A DNA stretch of 64,000 nucleotides, taken from NCBI GenBank assembly GCA_019454605.1, contig JACFNZ010000005.1:1-64000 (forward strand), written 5' to 3'. The notes under the pieces are model-generated. The model was not told where the DNA came from and did no database searches. It saw only the letters and a program-made list of their open reading frames with translations. Within the stretch, counting starts at the first letter, position 1, and each line of letters begins with the position of its first letter. Positions 1,500-58,650 of this stretch are shown in pieces. The stretch comes from Candidatus Altimarinota bacterium (GTDB lineage Bacteria > Patescibacteriota > Gracilibacteria > BD1-5 > UBA6164). The position numbers were made by a program, and so were the translations under genes.

Positions 1500-2417
1500 A
1501 TGAATTTTATAAAAGCAAAAATTGATTTTTTAGATTGGTTGCAGTTTATGAAAAATAAATCACCAAAAACTATAGAACAATATAATAGACATCTTTTAAA
1601 ATTTGAAGATTATTTAATTGATATTTGATTAAAAGATATAGAATTAAAAGATTTTGATATAAAAATAATAAATGATTTTAGAATATTTTTACATAAAAAC
1701 TCTAAAAAAAGTATATCAATAAAAACAGCAAATGCTTATATGATAACTTTGAGATCTTTTTTTAAATACTTAGAAAAACAAGATATACAAAGCTTTTCCC
1801 CAACAAAAATTGACTTAATAAAAAACGAAGAAAGAAAAGTTGAATTTCTTACAAATGAAGAATTAGATAGATTAGTTAATTCTATATGAGATGAAAATAT
1901 AAAAGATCTAAGAGATTTAGCTATAATAAAAACAATTTATTCGACTTGACTTAGAGTCTCAGAAACTATTTCTTTAAATATTAATGATATAGATTTTACT
2001 CAAAAGCAATTTACAATTAGATGAAAATGAAGAAAATTAAGGATTGTTTTTATCGGAGAAGATGCCATAATACAAATAAAAAAATATCTAAATAAAAGAA
2101 ATGATAATTTTAAACCACTTTTTATTAGACATAATTATGATATAAAAAATATAGATATATTATATGATGAAAAAGTTAGATTAACAAGAAATTGGTTGTC
2201 AGATATGGTGGGAAAAAGGTGAATAGAAGCTAAAATAACAAAAAAAATTTCAGCCCATACATTAAGACACTCTTTTGCTACAACACTTCTATGAGCTTGA
2301 GCAGATTTAAGAAGTATTCAAGAATTACTTTGACATTCAAATATATCAACTACACAAATATATACACACATAACAAATCCAAAACTAAAAGAAATACATA
2401 ATAACATAATAAAATAA
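1500..2417 (+). CDS. Tyrosine recombinase, XerC/XerD family
   Basis: 305 residues, the usual Xer size: an N-terminal SAM-like core-binding domain (about 1-110) and a C-terminal catalytic domain. The catalytic set is present: R152 (STGLRVSE), H253-T-L-R256-H (AHTLRHSF), H279 (LLGHSN) and the nucleophile Y288 (IYTHI). The likely role is resolution of chromosome dimers at dif. No integrase-type neighbours or attachment sites are visible, so a housekeeping Xer is more likely than a phage integrase. It starts a tight cluster with pth (1-base gap) and murC. Confidence 0.93.
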
Positions 2418-4330: not shown

Positions 4331-6010
4331 TTACTTTATCCCTAAAAATACCTTTAAATTTAAATCTTTTTTTCTTGAATATATTGATATAAATAATTTT
4401 GATATAAATAAAGCAGTAAATAATGAAACTATAAGTCAAATTAAAACCATTAATCAAAATCATTTAATCATATTTATACCAAATATAAATAAAATAATTG
4501 AAACTATAATTCAAGTAATATTTGAATCCCATATAGCAGAAAAAGATTTATCAAATCATTCCTTTATAGCATCATTTGTCTTTTTTCATTCAACTAAAGC
4601 TTCTTTTAATCTTTCAAAAATTAAAACATTTGCATCAATTGCCATTCAAACTGATAAAATAAATCAAGCAATTCAAGCTAGTGTTAAAACTATTCAAAAT
4701 AATTTTATTATAGCAAGCATTAAAGTTATATAAATAAATAATGAAACTCAAGCAAGTAACCCTCAAACTCTATAAATTAATACTAAAAATATTATTATAG
4801 CAATAAATCACCATATTCAAGCATTTATTAATTGAGTTAAAGAATTAGCTCATAATTTTGAATCTATAGTTCTTTCTGAAGTCAAATAAATTGGAGCAGG
4901 AACAACTCAAGTATTTATATCTTGAGAAAGTTTTACTGCTTCTTTTGGTGTATATGATCAAGTAATAACAGCTTTTCAAGTTAAAATAGTATCATTAACT
5001 GTTGGTGAAGTAAGTAAATCTCATCAAACAAATATTGCTATAGGAGATCATTTTAATCTTTTTGTTAATTCTCAAAATACTTCTGCTCATTCATCATTAA
5101 AAGTAAGCTCAATCATTGGTTGAAATGCTTGGTTGTATTGAACTGCTGAAGAGATAAAGTTTTTTTCATTTAAAACTCTTCATTTACTATCTTTTGCAGG
5201 CATCCATTCTGATGGTTGTCAAGAAACAAAGGCATAATTAAAATCAATTAAACCTCAAGAATTTGATTTTACATCAATTATCCAATATCATTTATCTTGA
5301 GTAGTAGTTAATTCTCAGTTAGAAATTCATATAGAACTTAATCATGTTCAAGTTAATACTTCACTATAAATTCAAGTTTTTAAATTAGTTGTATCTAATG
5401 TAAAATATGGTTTTAATGAATTAGTAGTTCAAGTTAAAGTTCAAATATTGATATTTTCATTATTATCTTTAAAAATAGTTGAATTTACTCAAAAATTATA
5501 CTCACTTGTTTTAGCTTCTTTTAAAAAATTATCTGCTAAAATTTTTCTTTCTTCTAAATCTTTTTGAGTAACTTCATTTCTTTGTTCTTTGAATTCAATT
5601 TTCATTACTTTTCAAATAGCATCTTTTGCTCTTTTTATATTTGCTTCATTTTCTTGTTTATTATTTCATTTTAAAGGAATTTGAACAATTATATGTTTTT
5701 CATTTCAGTAAGATGCTGTTGTTATAACTGAATCATTAATTTTTAAACTTTCAATTCTTTTATCAACAATTGATTTTAATCATTCAATTATACTTTTTTC
5801 TTTTTGTAAATTATATCATTCTTCATTTTGGACTTGTGATAAATCTATTTTATAATCAAGCTCAACTCATCATTGTAAGTCAAGTCATAATCTATAGTTA
5901 TTTCAAGAAAAAGGCATATTTATATTATAAACATTCCAAGGTACTGCATAGTAAATAGTTGCAATAAAAAGTATTATTACAAATGCTAATTTATAAATTA
6001 ATTTTTCCAT
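4331..6010 (-). CDS. secD: Protein translocase subunit SecD
   Basis: 559 residues. SecD is an accessory subunit of the Sec translocon that uses the proton gradient to complete export. It has an N-terminal membrane segment, then YRLGLDLQGGVEL (family motif), a periplasmic P1 region, the conserved GVVPAPIYLTSERTI segment, and five C-terminal hydrophobic segments starting near GALGANSL. NANVLIFERLKEAL is the typical SecD/SecF loop. No SecF partner lies beside it, so secF must be elsewhere or absent. Confidence 0.92.
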
Positions 6011-9961: not shown

Positions 9962-10033
9962 TTAAATTATTTTTATTTGTAATTTTTTTGGGAAATTATA
10001 TAATAAAATCATTATTTTAATAATATTTAAAAT

Positions 10034-13000
10034 ATGATTAATCTAAAAAAATTAGGGCAAAAACTACTTTCAATTTATACTAAAAATAAAACATACTTTT
10101 TAAGTAGTTTTATTTTTGTTTTAACACTTTTTATATTTTGAGTTTTTCTTTTTAATAATAAAGAAATTAATCAATTATTTAAAAATACTTTTTCTTCTTT
10201 TGAAATTTCAGGGGGAAATTTTGATTTATGAATTAAAAAAATTCCATACAATACTAAATCAATAGATCTATCTTTTTCTAAAAAAATAGATAAAGAAAGT
10301 GTGTCAAAAGATATTTTTAAAATAACCCCAGAAGTTCCTTGAATTTTGGAGTTAAAAAATGATAATACCTTAAGTTTTAAACTAGAAGAAAGCCTTAAAA
10401 TAGGTCAAGATTATACTATTTTGATTTCAAAAAATCTAAAGTCAATAAATTGAGAAAAATTAGAGGATGATATTTTATATATAGTTTCTGCAGTTGCAGG
10501 AGCTAAAGTTGTAAAAGTTTTACCAGAAAAAAACTTAGATAATTTGCAAAAAAATCTAGTAGTCTTTTTTAGCCTGCCAATGATTAGTATATCTAGTTTA
10601 GATTTTAAAGATGATTTACCATGCCCTTTAGAAATTACACCAAAAATTGAATGAAAATGTAGTTGGACTACCACTTCAGTTTTAGAATTTATCCCAAAAA
10701 CTCAATTTAATTGAGCAACAAAGTATGATTATAGTATTGCATATAAATCTTGATTAAATTATCCTTTAGATGACACTTTTACTTGAAGTTTTGTAACTCC
10801 TGATTTAAAGCCTCTTGTAAATGATAGTTTTTCTCCAAAAGATTATATAAATTTAAACTTTAATTATCCTGTATCAATTGATGATTTAACTAAAAACATA
10901 AAAATATATAAAATTGATGAAAATAAAAAAGAAACTGAAATAAAAATAAAAGTTGAAAATATTAAAAATTCTGAAAAATCTTTTTTAATTAAATCATTAA
11001 ATTGAGAATATTTTTATGATACAAACTATAAATTAGTTTTAAATAAATGATTAAATCCAAAATATTGAAATATTTCTTTGAAAACAGAATTTGTAGCAAA
11101 TCTAAAATCAAATCCATTTATATCAAATATATGAGTTTATAAAAATATATATTGAAATACCTGAAGTTTAGTTGATACTAAAGACTTTACATATAGAGAT
11201 TTTCTACCAAATAAAGATGTATTTTTTAATATAAGCTTTTTTGAAGAAACCCCTTTAAATAAAGATATGTTTGAGTTTAAAGATAGTAAAACTTGAGAAA
11301 AAATTAACTTCTCAATTTCTTATGTAAAAAAAGAAATAGAAGCAAATTGAGTAAAAAGTTGGGTTGATGATAAAACTCAAATTCGTTTTGAACTTAAAAA
11401 CTCTCTAAAAAATAATTCAGACTATACTTTAACATTGTTTAAGAAAATAAACCCATCTTTATTAAAAGATGTAGTTTACAATTATAAGACATCTAAAAAC
11501 TTAGAAATAACAAACTTTTTAAATATTGATTATTCAAAATCTTGTTTATACGTAAATAATCCTTTAGATTGAGTATATCTTGACTGAAGTGAGAAAACAT
11601 TAAATAATTTTATAAATTTTTCAAATTCTTGAACTTTGAAATGATTTTTTGAAAGTCAATATATAGAAGATTGGCAATTTTCAGAGTCAATAGAGAATTT
11701 ATCTAAGGAAGATAAAAATAAAAAATTAATTGAAAAATGATATTGTCCAGAAGCAAATCCTTGAGAAACTCTTTATTCTATTGACTCAAGACTTTCTCCA
11801 AATAGCTCTTATGATATAAATATTTCAAATTTAGAAGATATTTATTGAAACAAGCAAACTACTTTATTTAAAAATTCTATAAAAACAAAAAATTTAAGAG
11901 AAAATGATAAATATGTTTATACTTCTTTTGTAAACCAGACAAATGTTTTTCCAAATAATGTGCCAACTATAATAAATATTCAAACTATAAATACTTCAAA
12001 TATTTTTGTAGATGTATGTGAAATGAATGATTTAGATTATAAAAATTATTTAAAAGACCCATTTTGAAATTTTGCAACATGCACGAAAAAAACAAGCAAA
12101 AAACTTGATACAAAACTTGTATATTGGAAAATGACAAATAATAAATTTGATTTAGAAAAAGATATTTTATGATACAAAACTGATGCAAAATATATATGAT
12201 TTGAAGTTTTTAATAATGAATCAAAATCAAAAGAAAATAATTATGCAAAAAATTTAATTATAAAAACAAACATAAGTGCTTTTTTAGAAAAATGATCAAA
12301 TAAATCTATACTATATGCTACAAAGTTGTGAGATAATAGCGAAATACCAAATTTAAATTTAGAATTTTATGATTTTAATTATAACAAAACTACCATACCA
12401 TATAAATTTGATAAAGAAAAAAAAGTTTATGTAATTGATCAAGATTTGAGTTGAATTTCATATATTTTATTGAAAAATAATGACTTTTATTGAATTATTT
12501 GAGATTGAGATGATTTTTCAAATTATGATTTTAAATATATTTCAGGTCAAGATAGTTCTACAAAAGATTATGCTTATGTTTACTCTGATAGACCTATTTA
12601 TAGACCTTGAGATGAAGTGCAAATAAAATGACTTTTAAGAGAATTTAATTTTGATTGATACAAAAAATCAAGTATAAAATCTTGAGTTTTAAAAATTATT
12701 TGAGAAGACTTTAATGAATATAGAAGTATGGAGTTAAATCTTGATAATAATTCAAATTTTACTTGAAGTTTTATAATTCCAAAAGATTTTGCTTTATGAA
12801 ATTTTAAATTTCAATTCAAATACAAAAATAAAAAAGAAAGCTATTATCAAGATATATATACTGCTTGATGATTTAGTGTTGAAGAGTATAAAAAACCTAC
12901 ATTTAAAGTAGATATAGAAACTGGTAAAAATGATTTAAATATTTGAGAAAAAACAAATATAAAAATCTCTCCAAAATATTATTTTGGTTGAAAAATGACA

Positions 13001-44405: not shown

Positions 44406-44615
44406 ATGGATAAAACTAAAAATCAAAATTTATATGAAGTAAGAAAGAGAGTGAGGTTTTCTTTGTGAGATATAAATAATAAAGACTTATTTTTCAAATG
44501 AATTGAGTTTAATAATGAAAAATGAATAACATAAAATAAAAAGCAAGATTTATCAATCTTATTAGAAAATCTTGAAAATTTTTTAAATAATTTTGTTTAT
44601 ACTTTTCCTATTTAA
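44406..44615 (+). pseudogene. Broken ORF resembling the N-terminus of a type V CRISPR effector
   Basis: ATG at 44406 opens MDKTKNQNLYEVRKRVRFSL and runs 42 codons to TAA (44532). The same frame continues for 26 more codons (DLSILLENLENFLNNFVYTF) to a second TAA that lies inside the first CRISPR repeat. NLYEVRKRVRFSL resembles the K-T-x-R-F-x-L opening of Cas12a/Cms1-type effectors (from memory, for example NLYELSKTLRFEL). The order effector start, then array, in one orientation supports a remnant left by a deletion. A novel small gene is the alternative. Confidence 0.5.
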
Positions 44616-44895
44616 AACCAATAATAAATTTCTACTTTTGTAGATTATAATCATTCATTATAGATGAAGAATTTAAAACTGATAATAAATTTCTACTTTT
44701 GTAGATTTAGGAAACACATTAAAAAACTTTCACATTTAAAACTGATAATAAATTTCTACTTTTGTAGATTCAAGTTATTTTCTCGTAGTTCTTGTTATTT
44801 AAAACTGATAATAAATTTCTACTTTTGTAGACACCGATATGCATTTTTTGCAGGTCGGTGATTTAAAGATAATAATAAATTTTACTTTTATAGAT
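44610..44895 (+). CRISPR. CRISPR array, Cas12a-type repeats, 5 repeats and 4 spacers
   Basis: 36-base repeats start at 44610, 44671, 44734, 44797 and 44861. They begin ATTTAAAACTGATAATAA and end in the Cas12a crRNA handle TTTCTAC-TTTT-GTAGAT. Repeat 1 differs at three positions (CCA for CTG), repeat 4 only in its last base, and repeat 5 is decayed (TTTAC...ATAGA, one base lost). Spacers are 25, 27, 27 and 28 bases (44646-44670, 44707-44733, 44770-44796, 44833-44860). Orientation is + from the handle position and the decayed 3' repeat. No cas1, cas2, cas4 or complete effector lies in the window. Confidence 0.93.
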
Positions 44896-45496: not shown

Positions 45497-46872
45497 ATGT
45501 ATCCACTAAAAATAAAAGAAAAATATGACCCAAAAAATCTAGCTAATTTATCACATAGATTTTCAGTTCCTTATATGTGAAACTATATTCCTTGAAATAT
45601 GGATGAATATAGTTGAAGCCATTTAGCTGTTGATATAGTCCCTGAAACTTCTAATCAAGAAGTACTTGCTCCACTTGATGGAGAGGTTTTTAAAACTTGA
45701 GAAGGCTGAGCTTATTGAAAATTTATCGTTATAAAACATATTTTACTCCCAGATCCTAATGACTTTTCTAAAAAAACTAATTTATATAGTTCTTTTGAAC
45801 ATTTAAGTGATGTGAAAGTAAAAATTTGAGATAAGTTAGTTGCTTGAGATATTATTTGAAATACTTGAAATACTTGAAATAGTTTTTGAGAACATTTACA
45901 TTTTCAAATAGATAGGGAAGAAGCACCTTTTAAACCTTATTGGCCATATACTTGAAATGATGTTAAAAATGCTTGAATTTCTTTTTCTGAGTGAGTAAAT
46001 CAAAAACTTTGATATGAAAATGCTTTAAAATACACTATTAATCCACTTGTTTATCTTGATAGTTTATCAAATCAAAAAAATCTAGTTGTAGAAAATAAAG
46101 ATATAGAAACTCCTAAAAAAGTTGAAGAAAAAATAGTAGTTGAAATTCCAAAAGAAATTCCTTTAACTTGAAATATAGTAAATACTCAAGAAGTAGCATC
46201 TAATTTAAATAATCTAAATACTCCTAAAAAAGAAGTTGAAAATATAACTCCTACTTGAAATAATATTATAAAGGAAGAAAAATTAGATGTTACTCGTGAT
46301 GCAAAATGAAGTAATATTATTTCAAATCCACTTTTAGAAGAATTAAAAAAAAAAGATTTATAGATCTTAAATTAGATGATGAAAATATTGAATTTATAAA
46401 TTATTTAGCATCAAAAAATATAATTAATTGATTTGGAGATAATACTTTTAGACCAAATTTATGAATTACAAGAGCAGAATTTTTAAAAATTATATTTCTT
46501 GCTTGAGATATTAAATTATCTACTGATACAACTAAAAGATTTGTTGATATAAAAGTTTGATGGCAAAATATATATGTAAATACTTGAATTGATTTAAAAA
46601 TTATCTCAAGCAAAAATAAATACTTTTATCCAAATTGAAATATTTCAAGAGTTGAAGCTTTAAAAATTATTATAAAAATATTTGTTTGAGATATTGATGA
46701 CATTTATTTAAATAACTTTAAAGATGTAAAAAATACTGATTGGTTTGCTTGATATGTTGAATATGCTATAAAAAATAAATTATTTACTATAAATAATAAT
46801 TATTTTTCACCAAATAAACCACTTACAAGAATTGAACTTATAAAAATATTAAATTTTTTTATAAAATATTAG
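45497..46872 (+). CDS. M23 peptidase/SLH protein, interrupted by a frameshift at an A10 tract
   Basis: Paralogue of 31876-33708. The first part, 45497-46363 (288 codons), has the M23 domain SGSHLAVDI (near 38) and GEHLHFQIDRE (near 132), with no membrane anchor, unlike the paralogue. At 46345-46354 a run of ten A ends the frame eight bases later at TAG. The SLH domains (FIDLKLDDENIEFINYL, INGFGDNTFRP, ITRAEFLKI) continue in the -1 frame to TAG at 46870. One extra A in the mRNA, or a -1 ribosomal slip, would give a single ~458-aa protein. A pseudogene or sequencing error is also possible. Confidence 0.75.
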
Positions 46873-46879
46873 ATAAAGA

Positions 46880-46906
46880 AAAAAGCCCCATATGTGGGGC
46901 TTTTTA
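46880..46906 (+). terminator. Terminator after M23/SLH paralogue
   Basis: G+C-rich stem AAAAGCCCCA / TGGGGCTTTT with a TATG loop and a T-run; the clearest terminator in the window. Confidence 0.9.
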
Positions 46907-46978
46907 TGACTCAAACCGGTAAGCTTGAGATATTTCCTAAAAGATATTTTTACGGTAATAAAAATACTTCTAGTAAAA

Positions 46979-47120
46979 TGGTCGATGTGAAGAGAATTGA
47001 ACTCCTAACCTTTCTTTACTAAACTTTGTTAATTGTCAAAAGTGACAAGAACTTGTAGGGTAAAAACCTTACTTATACAAAATTTTAGTAAAAACTGCTC
47101 TGCCATTGAGCTACACACCG
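46979..47120 (-). tRNA. tRNA-like gene with a ~66-nt insertion in the anticodon arm
   Basis: 142 nt ending in encoded CCA. Acceptor CGGUGUG/CACAUCG, U8-A9, D-arm GCUC-AAUGGCA-GAGC and T-arm AGGAG-UUCAAUU-CUCUU are normal, with A73. Between the D-arm and T-arm lie about 87 bases instead of 21. A 9-bp perfect helix (UUUACUAAA/UUUAGUAAA) extends the anticodon stem and encloses two small hairpins (GGU-UUUU-ACC and UUGUCA-CUUU-UGACAA). No standard 7-base anticodon loop forms, so the identity is undetermined. An intron is possible, though it is far smaller than a group I intron. Confidence 0.7.
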
Positions 47121-47137: not shown

Positions 47138-47166
47138 TTACTATATACAAAAAAAATATTTGTCAA
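47138..47166 (-). promoter_or_regulatory. Promoter for the insertion-bearing tRNA
   Basis: On the reverse strand: a perfect TTGACA (47161-47166) and TATAGT (47140-47145, 15-base spacing) or TAGTAA (47138-47143, 17-base spacing), ending about 18-20 bases before the tRNA 5' end. It suggests the gene is transcribed. Confidence 0.6.
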
Positions 47167-47234: not shown

Positions 47235-48695
47235 ATGGCAAAATTTTATGATACTTTATTATGAGAATATATAAAAAATCCTTGAGTCAAAGGGCTTTCT
47301 TTAGATGATATTGCAAGTAAAGAGTTTGATTATAAAATGATTTCATATGATGAAGTGAGTGAAAAACAAACAAAAAATTTTACTGAAGTTGATTTGGTAA
47401 CAGCCTCAAAATACTCAGCAGAAGATGTTTATATTACTAATTTAATTTACCAAAAACAATTAAAAGAGTGAGTTGTTGATAATAAAGTTTTAAAAAATAT
47501 TGAAAATCCATTGATAGAAGTATTGAGAGATATTGAAATCAATTGAGTTAAAATAGATCAAAATAAATTAAAACAAATTTGAGTTTTTTTAGAAAAAGAA
47601 ATAATAAATCAAGAAAAAATTATTTTTGAAATAGCTTGAGAAGAGTTTAATTTAAAATCACCAAAACAAGTTTGAGAAATACTTTTTGATAAACTACAAT
47701 TACCTCAAGGAAAAAAAACAAAAACTTGATATAGTGTTGACAATGAAGTTTTAGAATATCTAGCACTAGAGCATCCTATAGCAAAACATATAGTTTTATA
47801 TAGATGATATTTTAAGATATTATCAACTTATGTAGAATGACTTTTAAAACTAGTAGATAAAGATACAAAAAAAATTCATACTTCATATAATCAAGCAGTT
47901 ACTACAACTTGAAGATTATCATCTACTTCACCAAATTTACAAAATATACCAACTTGAAAAGATGTGTATTGAAGTATTAGAGAAGCTTTTATACCTTATA
48001 AAGAAAATGATTTAATAGTTTCGTTTGATTACTCACAAATAGAGGTGAGATTACTTGCTATTATGTCTTGAGATGAAAATTTGACTTGAAGTTTTTTACA
48101 AAATCTTGATATACATAAAATGACTTGATATTTTTTGTTTTGAAAAGATGATATAACTTCTGAGGAAAGAAAAATAGCAAAAGCTGTAAATTTTTGAGTT
48201 ATTTATTGAATAAGTCCATTTTGACTTTCAAAAATGATTTGAATTTCTCAAAAACAAGCTAAAGAATATATTGATAAATTTTATGAAAAATACCCAAAAG
48301 TAAAAGATTTTTTTTCTAAAACTATAGAATTTTGTGAAAAAAATCTGTATGTTGAAACTTTATTTTGAAGAAAAAGATTTATTGATTGAATAAACGATAG
48401 AAATGCAATTATAAAAAAAGCAAAAGAAAGAGAAGCAATTAATATGCCAATCCAATGAACTTCAGCAGATATAATCAAAATTGCAATGATAAAAATTAAT
48501 GATTTTTTAATAAAAAATGATTTAAAATCTTGTATGATTATGCAAGTACATGATGAGCTTGTTTTTAATGTAGTAGAAAATGAATTTGAAATAATAAAAA
48601 AAGAAATTCCTTTAATTATGGAAAATATTATTGATGATAAAATAAAGCTAAAAGTTGATATGTGATTTTGAAAAAATTGGGGAGAATGTAAATAA
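47235..48695 (+). CDS. polA: DNA polymerase I, short form lacking the 5' nuclease and most of the exonuclease domain
   Basis: 486 residues; E. coli Pol I has 928. It starts at FYDTLLGEYIKNPGVKGLSL, aligned by eye with the middle of the 3'-5' exonuclease domain, and includes ASKYSAEDVYIT (Exo III-like) but not the DxE Exo I site. The polymerase domain is complete: TGRLSSTSPNLQNIP, motif A SFDYSQIEVR (D265), motif B KAVNFGVIYG, motif C MQVHDELVF (D440). It should polymerise without proofreading or nick translation. The 5' nuclease may be a separate gene elsewhere. Confidence 0.9.
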
Positions 48696-58571: not shown

Positions 58572-58650
58572 TGGAGCGAGGGACCAGGTTTGAACTGGCA
58601 CACCCAAGGGTTGAAGCCTTAGTACACTCACTCTTTTATGTTACCCTCGC
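58572..58650 (-). tRNA. tRNA-Gly (anticodon UCA), decodes UGA
   Basis: 79 nt with encoded CCA. Acceptor GCGAGGG/CCCUCGC, discriminator U73, T-arm GCCAG-UUCAAAC-CUGGU, anticodon stem UAAGG/CCUUG with loop CUUCAAC, giving U33 and anticodon UCA (34-36). G1:C72, C2:G71, U73 and C35 are the known GlyRS determinants, which supports glycine over Trp or Sec. The D-arm is irregular (ACAU/GUGU with an extra base before the anticodon stem). This explains the in-frame TGA codons across the window. Confidence 0.88.

Follow-up and report, generated by a model that had tools for sequence, protein, structure and literature searches.

Does a transfer RNA (tRNA) gene in which no anticodon loop can be drawn still serve its host? 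This question is raised by a tRNA-like gene at 46979-47120(-) in the first 64,000 nucleotides (nt) of contig JACFNZ010000005.1 of a Candidatus Altimarinota bacterium; this whole stretch is called the window below. The initial annotation described a tRNA gene with an enlarged anticodon arm and considered a miniature intron, a regulatory tRNA-like RNA or a decayed tRNA. We found that the gene belongs to a family of at least 11 RNAs that share the acceptor half of a tRNA-Pro and that all lack a decoding loop. The reading that we favour, and to which we give about an even chance, is that the gene is a member of a lineage of non-decoding, tRNA-Pro-derived RNAs working outside normal decoding. In the literature searched we found no description of such an RNA family.

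A tRNA-like gene without a decoding loop

The Rfam tRNA model matched the window at 46982-47120(-) with 38.2 bits (cut-off 29) and a large insert in the anticodon region, and ARAGORN called no tRNA at 46979-47120(-). The minimum free energy (MFE) fold of the 142-nt RNA is a cloverleaf with a 7-bp acceptor stem, a D arm, a 5-bp T arm and an extended anticodon arm; its energy is -35.6 kcal/mol (z -3.4) and none of 200 shuffled sequences was as stable. Model and fold thus bear out the 142-nt gene with intact acceptor, D and T arms and encoded CCA that had been read from the sequence. The anticodon arm had been credited with an insertion of ~66 nt; it is indeed enlarged, and the whole arm measures 82 nt. 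The 9-bp helix drawn there around two small hairpins needs a similar correction: the hairpins were recovered, and the outer perfect helix has 9 bp in the centroid and 11 bp in the MFE fold, in which a further 6 bp enclose the two hairpins. As first noted, no 7-nt anticodon loop could be drawn in the fold, that is, none with U33. In a whole-gene BLASTN search the gene was single copy in its genome, all matches other than itself being at chance level.

UGA is read as glycine in the host genome (1.0 Mb, 99.4% complete), where long open reading frames (ORFs) remain open only under code 25. The genome holds 32 other tRNA-model matches and one UCA gene, which cover all amino acids, including proline with Pro(UGG). 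We listed these tRNAs in search of a missing anticodon, as the initial annotation had proposed, and none is missing without the 142-nt gene, which is therefore not needed to complete the set. The UCA gene is ARAGORN's 'SeC(UCA)' call in the window at 58572-58650(-), which under code 25 is most likely a UGA-reading tRNA-Gly(UCA).

A family of RNAs that lack a decoding loop

Members were sought in 77 genomes of the order, many of them fragmented drafts, by means of synteny, the tRNA model and sequence patterns that describe either half of the RNA (5' or 3'). Our gene and the DNA polymerase I gene (polA, 47235-48695) are divergently oriented. The genus has three other species: in G001 and G003 a syntenic tRNA-like gene lies beside polA, and in G002 it is absent from that place. 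When a covariance model of the tRNA and its trailer was used, ordinary tRNAs ranked next after the three congeners, and an odd 'Ile(AAT)' call in G021 among the matches led to the wider family. In all, at least 11 members of 74-142 nt were found in five genera and two families, a lower bound because diverged members such as G031 escape the patterns. Eight of them lie beyond the genus (G006, G067, G068, G024, G031, G062, G021 and G072). The first five belong to one genus; a DedA-like membrane protein gene was found in five genomes, and in each of them it adjoins the RNA. G072 represents another family of the order. Standard tRNA annotation misses the family genes or mislabels them Phe, Ile or Asp, and phage and plasmid records yielded no convincing relative.

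Each member has its acceptor stem, T arm and CCA, and none of the 11 has a 7-nt loop with U33, whereas all 235 ordinary tRNAs compared have one. The ways in which the loop is lost differ. G001 (AUCCC-CAAAAAA-GGGAU) has a 7-nt loop without U33, G003 (CUCCU-CAAAA-AGGAG) a 5-nt loop, G021 (CCGUAC-AAU-GUACGG) a 3-nt loop and G072 a 6-nt loop; the arms are longer, and again without a U33 loop, in our gene and in G006, G067, G068, G024 and G062. In G031 one structure of ~80 nt replaces both the D and the anticodon arm.

These arms bear directly on whether the gene is a tRNA with a short anticodon-arm intron removed by an undescribed bacterial splicing activity. The extra sequence does lie within the anticodon arm in our gene and in the five other long-armed members. 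However, the arms of G001 and G003 are too short for an intron and still non-decoding, so that an intron cannot explain the family, and the short or U33-less loops of the relatives mean that intron removal is not what would restore an anticodon. No group I model matched, which agrees with the earlier judgement that the insertion is too short for such an intron (82 nt for the arm, against a length criterion of > ~200 nt). An archaeal-type bulge-helix-bulge intron, with two 3-nt bulges around a 4-bp helix, was rejected as well: the helix here is uninterrupted over 9-11 bp and the short-armed relatives are intronless. With no anticodon missing from the genome, the miniature intron is contradicted and we regard it as extremely improbable.

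Three further loci with unusual tRNA-like sequences were recorded. In G021 a second TLD-like RNA (GGCTAGG...ACTAGCCACCA; L134, ~1670-1757(-)) lies directly upstream of the member, apparently in the same transcript; a long hairpin stands where its D and anticodon arms would be. G024 carries three unusual tRNA genes in a row (L465, C96 ~10027-10280), including a second UCA tRNA and a Leu(AAG) call, possibly a mobile-element cluster. The viral contig L323 contains at ~4405-4475(-) a sequence resembling tRNA-Pro, in which the anticodon arm is truncated and the CCA is lacking.

Evidence for selection on the acceptor half

The pairs C1-G72, G2-C71, U6-A67 and G7-C66, the discriminator A73 and the CCA are kept in all 11 members. 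Across the 37-nt acceptor/T core 98.1% of the cells are paired, and six pairs show double-sided changes, in 13 cells; the shuffled mean is 3.4, none of 500 shuffles reached 13 and controls with slid partners failed. Covariation extends outside the stems: the tertiary contact 15:48 is formed by G-C in eight of the ten members that have kept the D arm and by A-U in the other two, and all ten retain U8 and A14. The remainder of the molecule diverges rapidly. Identity between G024 and G031 falls from 92% in the core to 36% in the body, and between our gene and G001 from 76% to 21%. Taken together, the conserved pairs, the covariation and this contrast place the selected part in the acceptor, elbow and CCA.

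The 5'-half pattern exactly matched 235 ordinary tRNAs of 73 nt in the reference genomes and viral contigs, all with U33, and 226 of these carry a proline anticodon. This makes the acceptor half of the RNA tRNA-Pro-like, and the likeness suggests that the family descends from tRNA-Pro. C1-G72 and A73 are bacterial Pro identity elements (PMC9976931), and both occur in all 11 members; the NGG anticodon is absent together with the anticodon loop. The alanine signal G3.U70 was also considered and fails as a family rule, since it is present in our gene only, although in 10 of the 11 members pair 3:70 or 4:69 is a wobble or a mismatch.

A decaying tRNA-Pro pseudogene would fit the degenerate anticodon arm, the tRNA set that is redundant without the gene, the absence of a copy beside polA in G002 and the 4:69 mismatches of two members. 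Against decay stand the compensatory changes in the acceptor and T stems, the covariation of 15:48, the conserved promoters and terminators described below and the persistence of the family in five genera of reduced genomes. The core covariation, 15:48, the promoters and the terminators speak against simple decay, and the existence of at least ten relatives with their own versions makes the gene look like a selected RNA rather than an intron-bearing tRNA or a dead gene. The decayed tRNA of the initial annotation is contradicted by these data, and we now consider it improbable; of the readings it offered, a tRNA-like RNA outside decoding is the one that survives.

Promoter, trailer hairpins and terminator

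The TTGACA promoter noted earlier was confirmed: TTGACA-N15-TATAGT has 11 of 12 matches, a score reached by 1.7% of shuffles, and ends 19 nt before the acceptor stem (Table 1). A promoter of the form TTGAC[AT]-N15-TATA[AG]T, with a spacer of exactly 15 nt, lies 13-19 nt upstream of 8 of the 11 members, and a simple rule identifies an intrinsic terminator in 10 of the 11. The initial annotation missed what lies beyond the CCA. In our gene, G001 and G003, the three members from this genus, two hairpins stand 36-37 nt apart between the CCA and a terminator; both carry the same UUACCG loop, on stems that have diverged. No further TTACCG hairpins occur elsewhere in the 64-kb window; in a search of 60 genomes the pair recurs only in this genus, and it is not present in members from other genera. 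The trailer hairpins may have been added in this genus alone, as a binding site for a protein or RNA. Downstream of the terminator, 46640-46872(+) resembles an SLH-domain coding remnant, with no single open frame listed.

Table 1 Features of the tRNA-like gene and its flanks in the window
Feature	Position	Strand	Support
-35 element TTGACA	47161..47166	-	shared, with the 15-nt spacer, by seven other members
-10 element TATAGT	47140..47145	-	promoter match
tRNA-like RNA gene, 142 nt, CCA encoded	46979..47120	-	Rfam tRNA 38.2 bits, fold, single copy
Acceptor stem 5' strand CGGTGTG	47114..47120	-	fold, core alignment
D arm GCTC-AATGGCA-GAGC	47097..47111	-	fold
Extended anticodon arm, 82 nt, without decoding loop	47013..47094	-	fold
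T arm AGGAG-TTCAATT-CTCTT	46990..47006	-	fold, pair counts
Acceptor stem 3' strand CACATCG, discriminator A73 and CCA	46979..46989	-	sequence, family comparison
Trailer hairpin 1, 9-bp stem, loop TTACCG	46944..46967	-	same loop in G001 and G003, stems diverged
Trailer hairpin 2, 7-bp stem, loop TTACCG	46910..46929	-	same loop in G001 and G003
Intrinsic terminator	46880..46905	-	downstream of trailer hairpins

The trailer raises the possibility of a regulatory small RNA that uses its tRNA-like part for maturation and stability and whose working part, the variable arm or the trailer hairpins, would bind an mRNA or protein. Two identical loops on diverged stems, conserved in spacing in three species and found nowhere else in the window, are consistent with this, and the tRNA-Other of Bacillus cereus is such a case (PMC3399842). 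However, the trailer is limited to one genus and the variable arm is dissimilar even between close species, so that neither could account for a function shared by the whole family. We regard this explanation as rather unlikely.

An unlikely alternative: a decoy for tRNA-attacking enzymes

The conserved acceptor, T arm and CCA are also the parts engaged by Cas12a3 (PMC12851939), and a rapidly diversifying body could be kept variable by conflict if the RNA were a decoy or sink for tRNA-attacking nucleases or toxins, such as cutters of the CCA tail or anticodon. A Cas12a-type repeat array lies ~2 kb from the gene. This CRISPR-like array (44607-44895(+)) consists of four good repeats ATTTAAAACTGATAATAAATTTCTACTTTTGTAGAT and one degenerate repeat with a period of 61-64 nt, and the repeats carry the Cas12a-type motif AATTTCTACnnnnGTAGA. 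We considered a link between array and RNA and found it unsupported: G001 and G003, which both have the RNA, lack the array at the corresponding place between genes, and no large cas gene occurs on the 92-kb contig. With a hypothetical nuclease, and with a single chromosomal copy that would make a weak sink, a decoy seems very improbable.

Proposed role of the RNA family

Returning to the favoured reading of tRNA-Pro-derived RNAs outside normal decoding, transcription from the gene's own promoter would leave only a very short leader, and RNase P and 3' processing would convert the transcript into a CCA-ended, L-shaped molecule. Its acceptor stem and elbow would be under selection, with the anticodon arm free to vary. 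An RNA that retains the features read by RNase P, CCA-handling enzymes, acceptor-reading synthetases, EF-Tu and tRNA-dependent transferases, but has lost the means to pair with a codon, is most simply a tRNA put to use outside decoding. As no codon pairing is possible, the RNA most likely serves a protein that reads only the acceptor and elbow. In the simplest option the RNA would be aminoacylated and donate its amino acid outside the ribosome; alternatively, it could be a dedicated partner of, or a competitor for, such an enzyme. More tentatively, we propose as possible a conserved class of anticodon-free aminoacyl-carrier RNAs in bacteria that read UGA as glycine, tRNA-Pro descendants that would be charged through the acceptor only, transfer amino acids outside the ribosome and let their body drift.

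Several points weigh against the favoured reading. The distribution is patchy, with members in 10 of the 48 genomes of the family; neighbour genes differ between genera; and G031 has lost the D arm. The synthetase determinants are not uniform either, G3.U70 being confined to our gene and the proline anticodon determinants being lost. Finally, expression, processing, charging and use are steps that we infer. A family that keeps acceptor, elbow and CCA while its decoding half varies freely presents the two halves of a tRNA as separated by natural evolution. With it one can ask directly which enzymes of a reduced, recoded bacterial lineage make use of tRNA beyond decoding.

Comparison with known systems

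With bacterial tRNA-Pro the family shares C1-G72, A73, a 5' half of the TGTAGCTCAGnCTGGTAGAGC type and the T arm; it differs in the absence of an NGG anticodon and of a 7-nt U33 loop and in its length of 74-142 nt. Transfer-messenger RNA (tmRNA, RF00023) likewise combines an acceptor stem, T arm and CCA without an anticodon, and our gene even has its G3.U70. The family RNAs, in contrast, lack a tag reading frame and have a D arm in 10 of 11 members. We rejected a tmRNA identity for the gene, given 142 nt versus 300-450 nt and the absence of the tag frame and pseudoknots; most of these genomes have a separate candidate for tmRNA, and the match in the host (C2:35603-36070) scores 35 bits, below the 47-bit cut-off.

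In staphylococci, non-proteogenic tRNAs serve peptidoglycan synthesis and, as proposed here, a tRNA body is diverted from translation; to our knowledge these tRNAs keep a normal anticodon arm, unlike the RNA described here. Such peptidoglycan-synthesis tRNAs have been mentioned as pseudo-tRNAs (PMC3399842). The tRNA-Other of B. cereus is a tRNA-like element within a larger regulatory RNA and contains a Trp anticodon (PMC3399842). Our gene, too, is a tRNA-like gene that would act outside translation and would lie inside a longer RNA with extra downstream sequence; it differs in having no anticodon loop, a tRNA-Pro-like acceptor half and a hypervariable arm. With a redundant tRNA set and no decoding loop, its fold is not needed for decoding, and the gene is likely a member of the non-translational tRNA-like RNAs.
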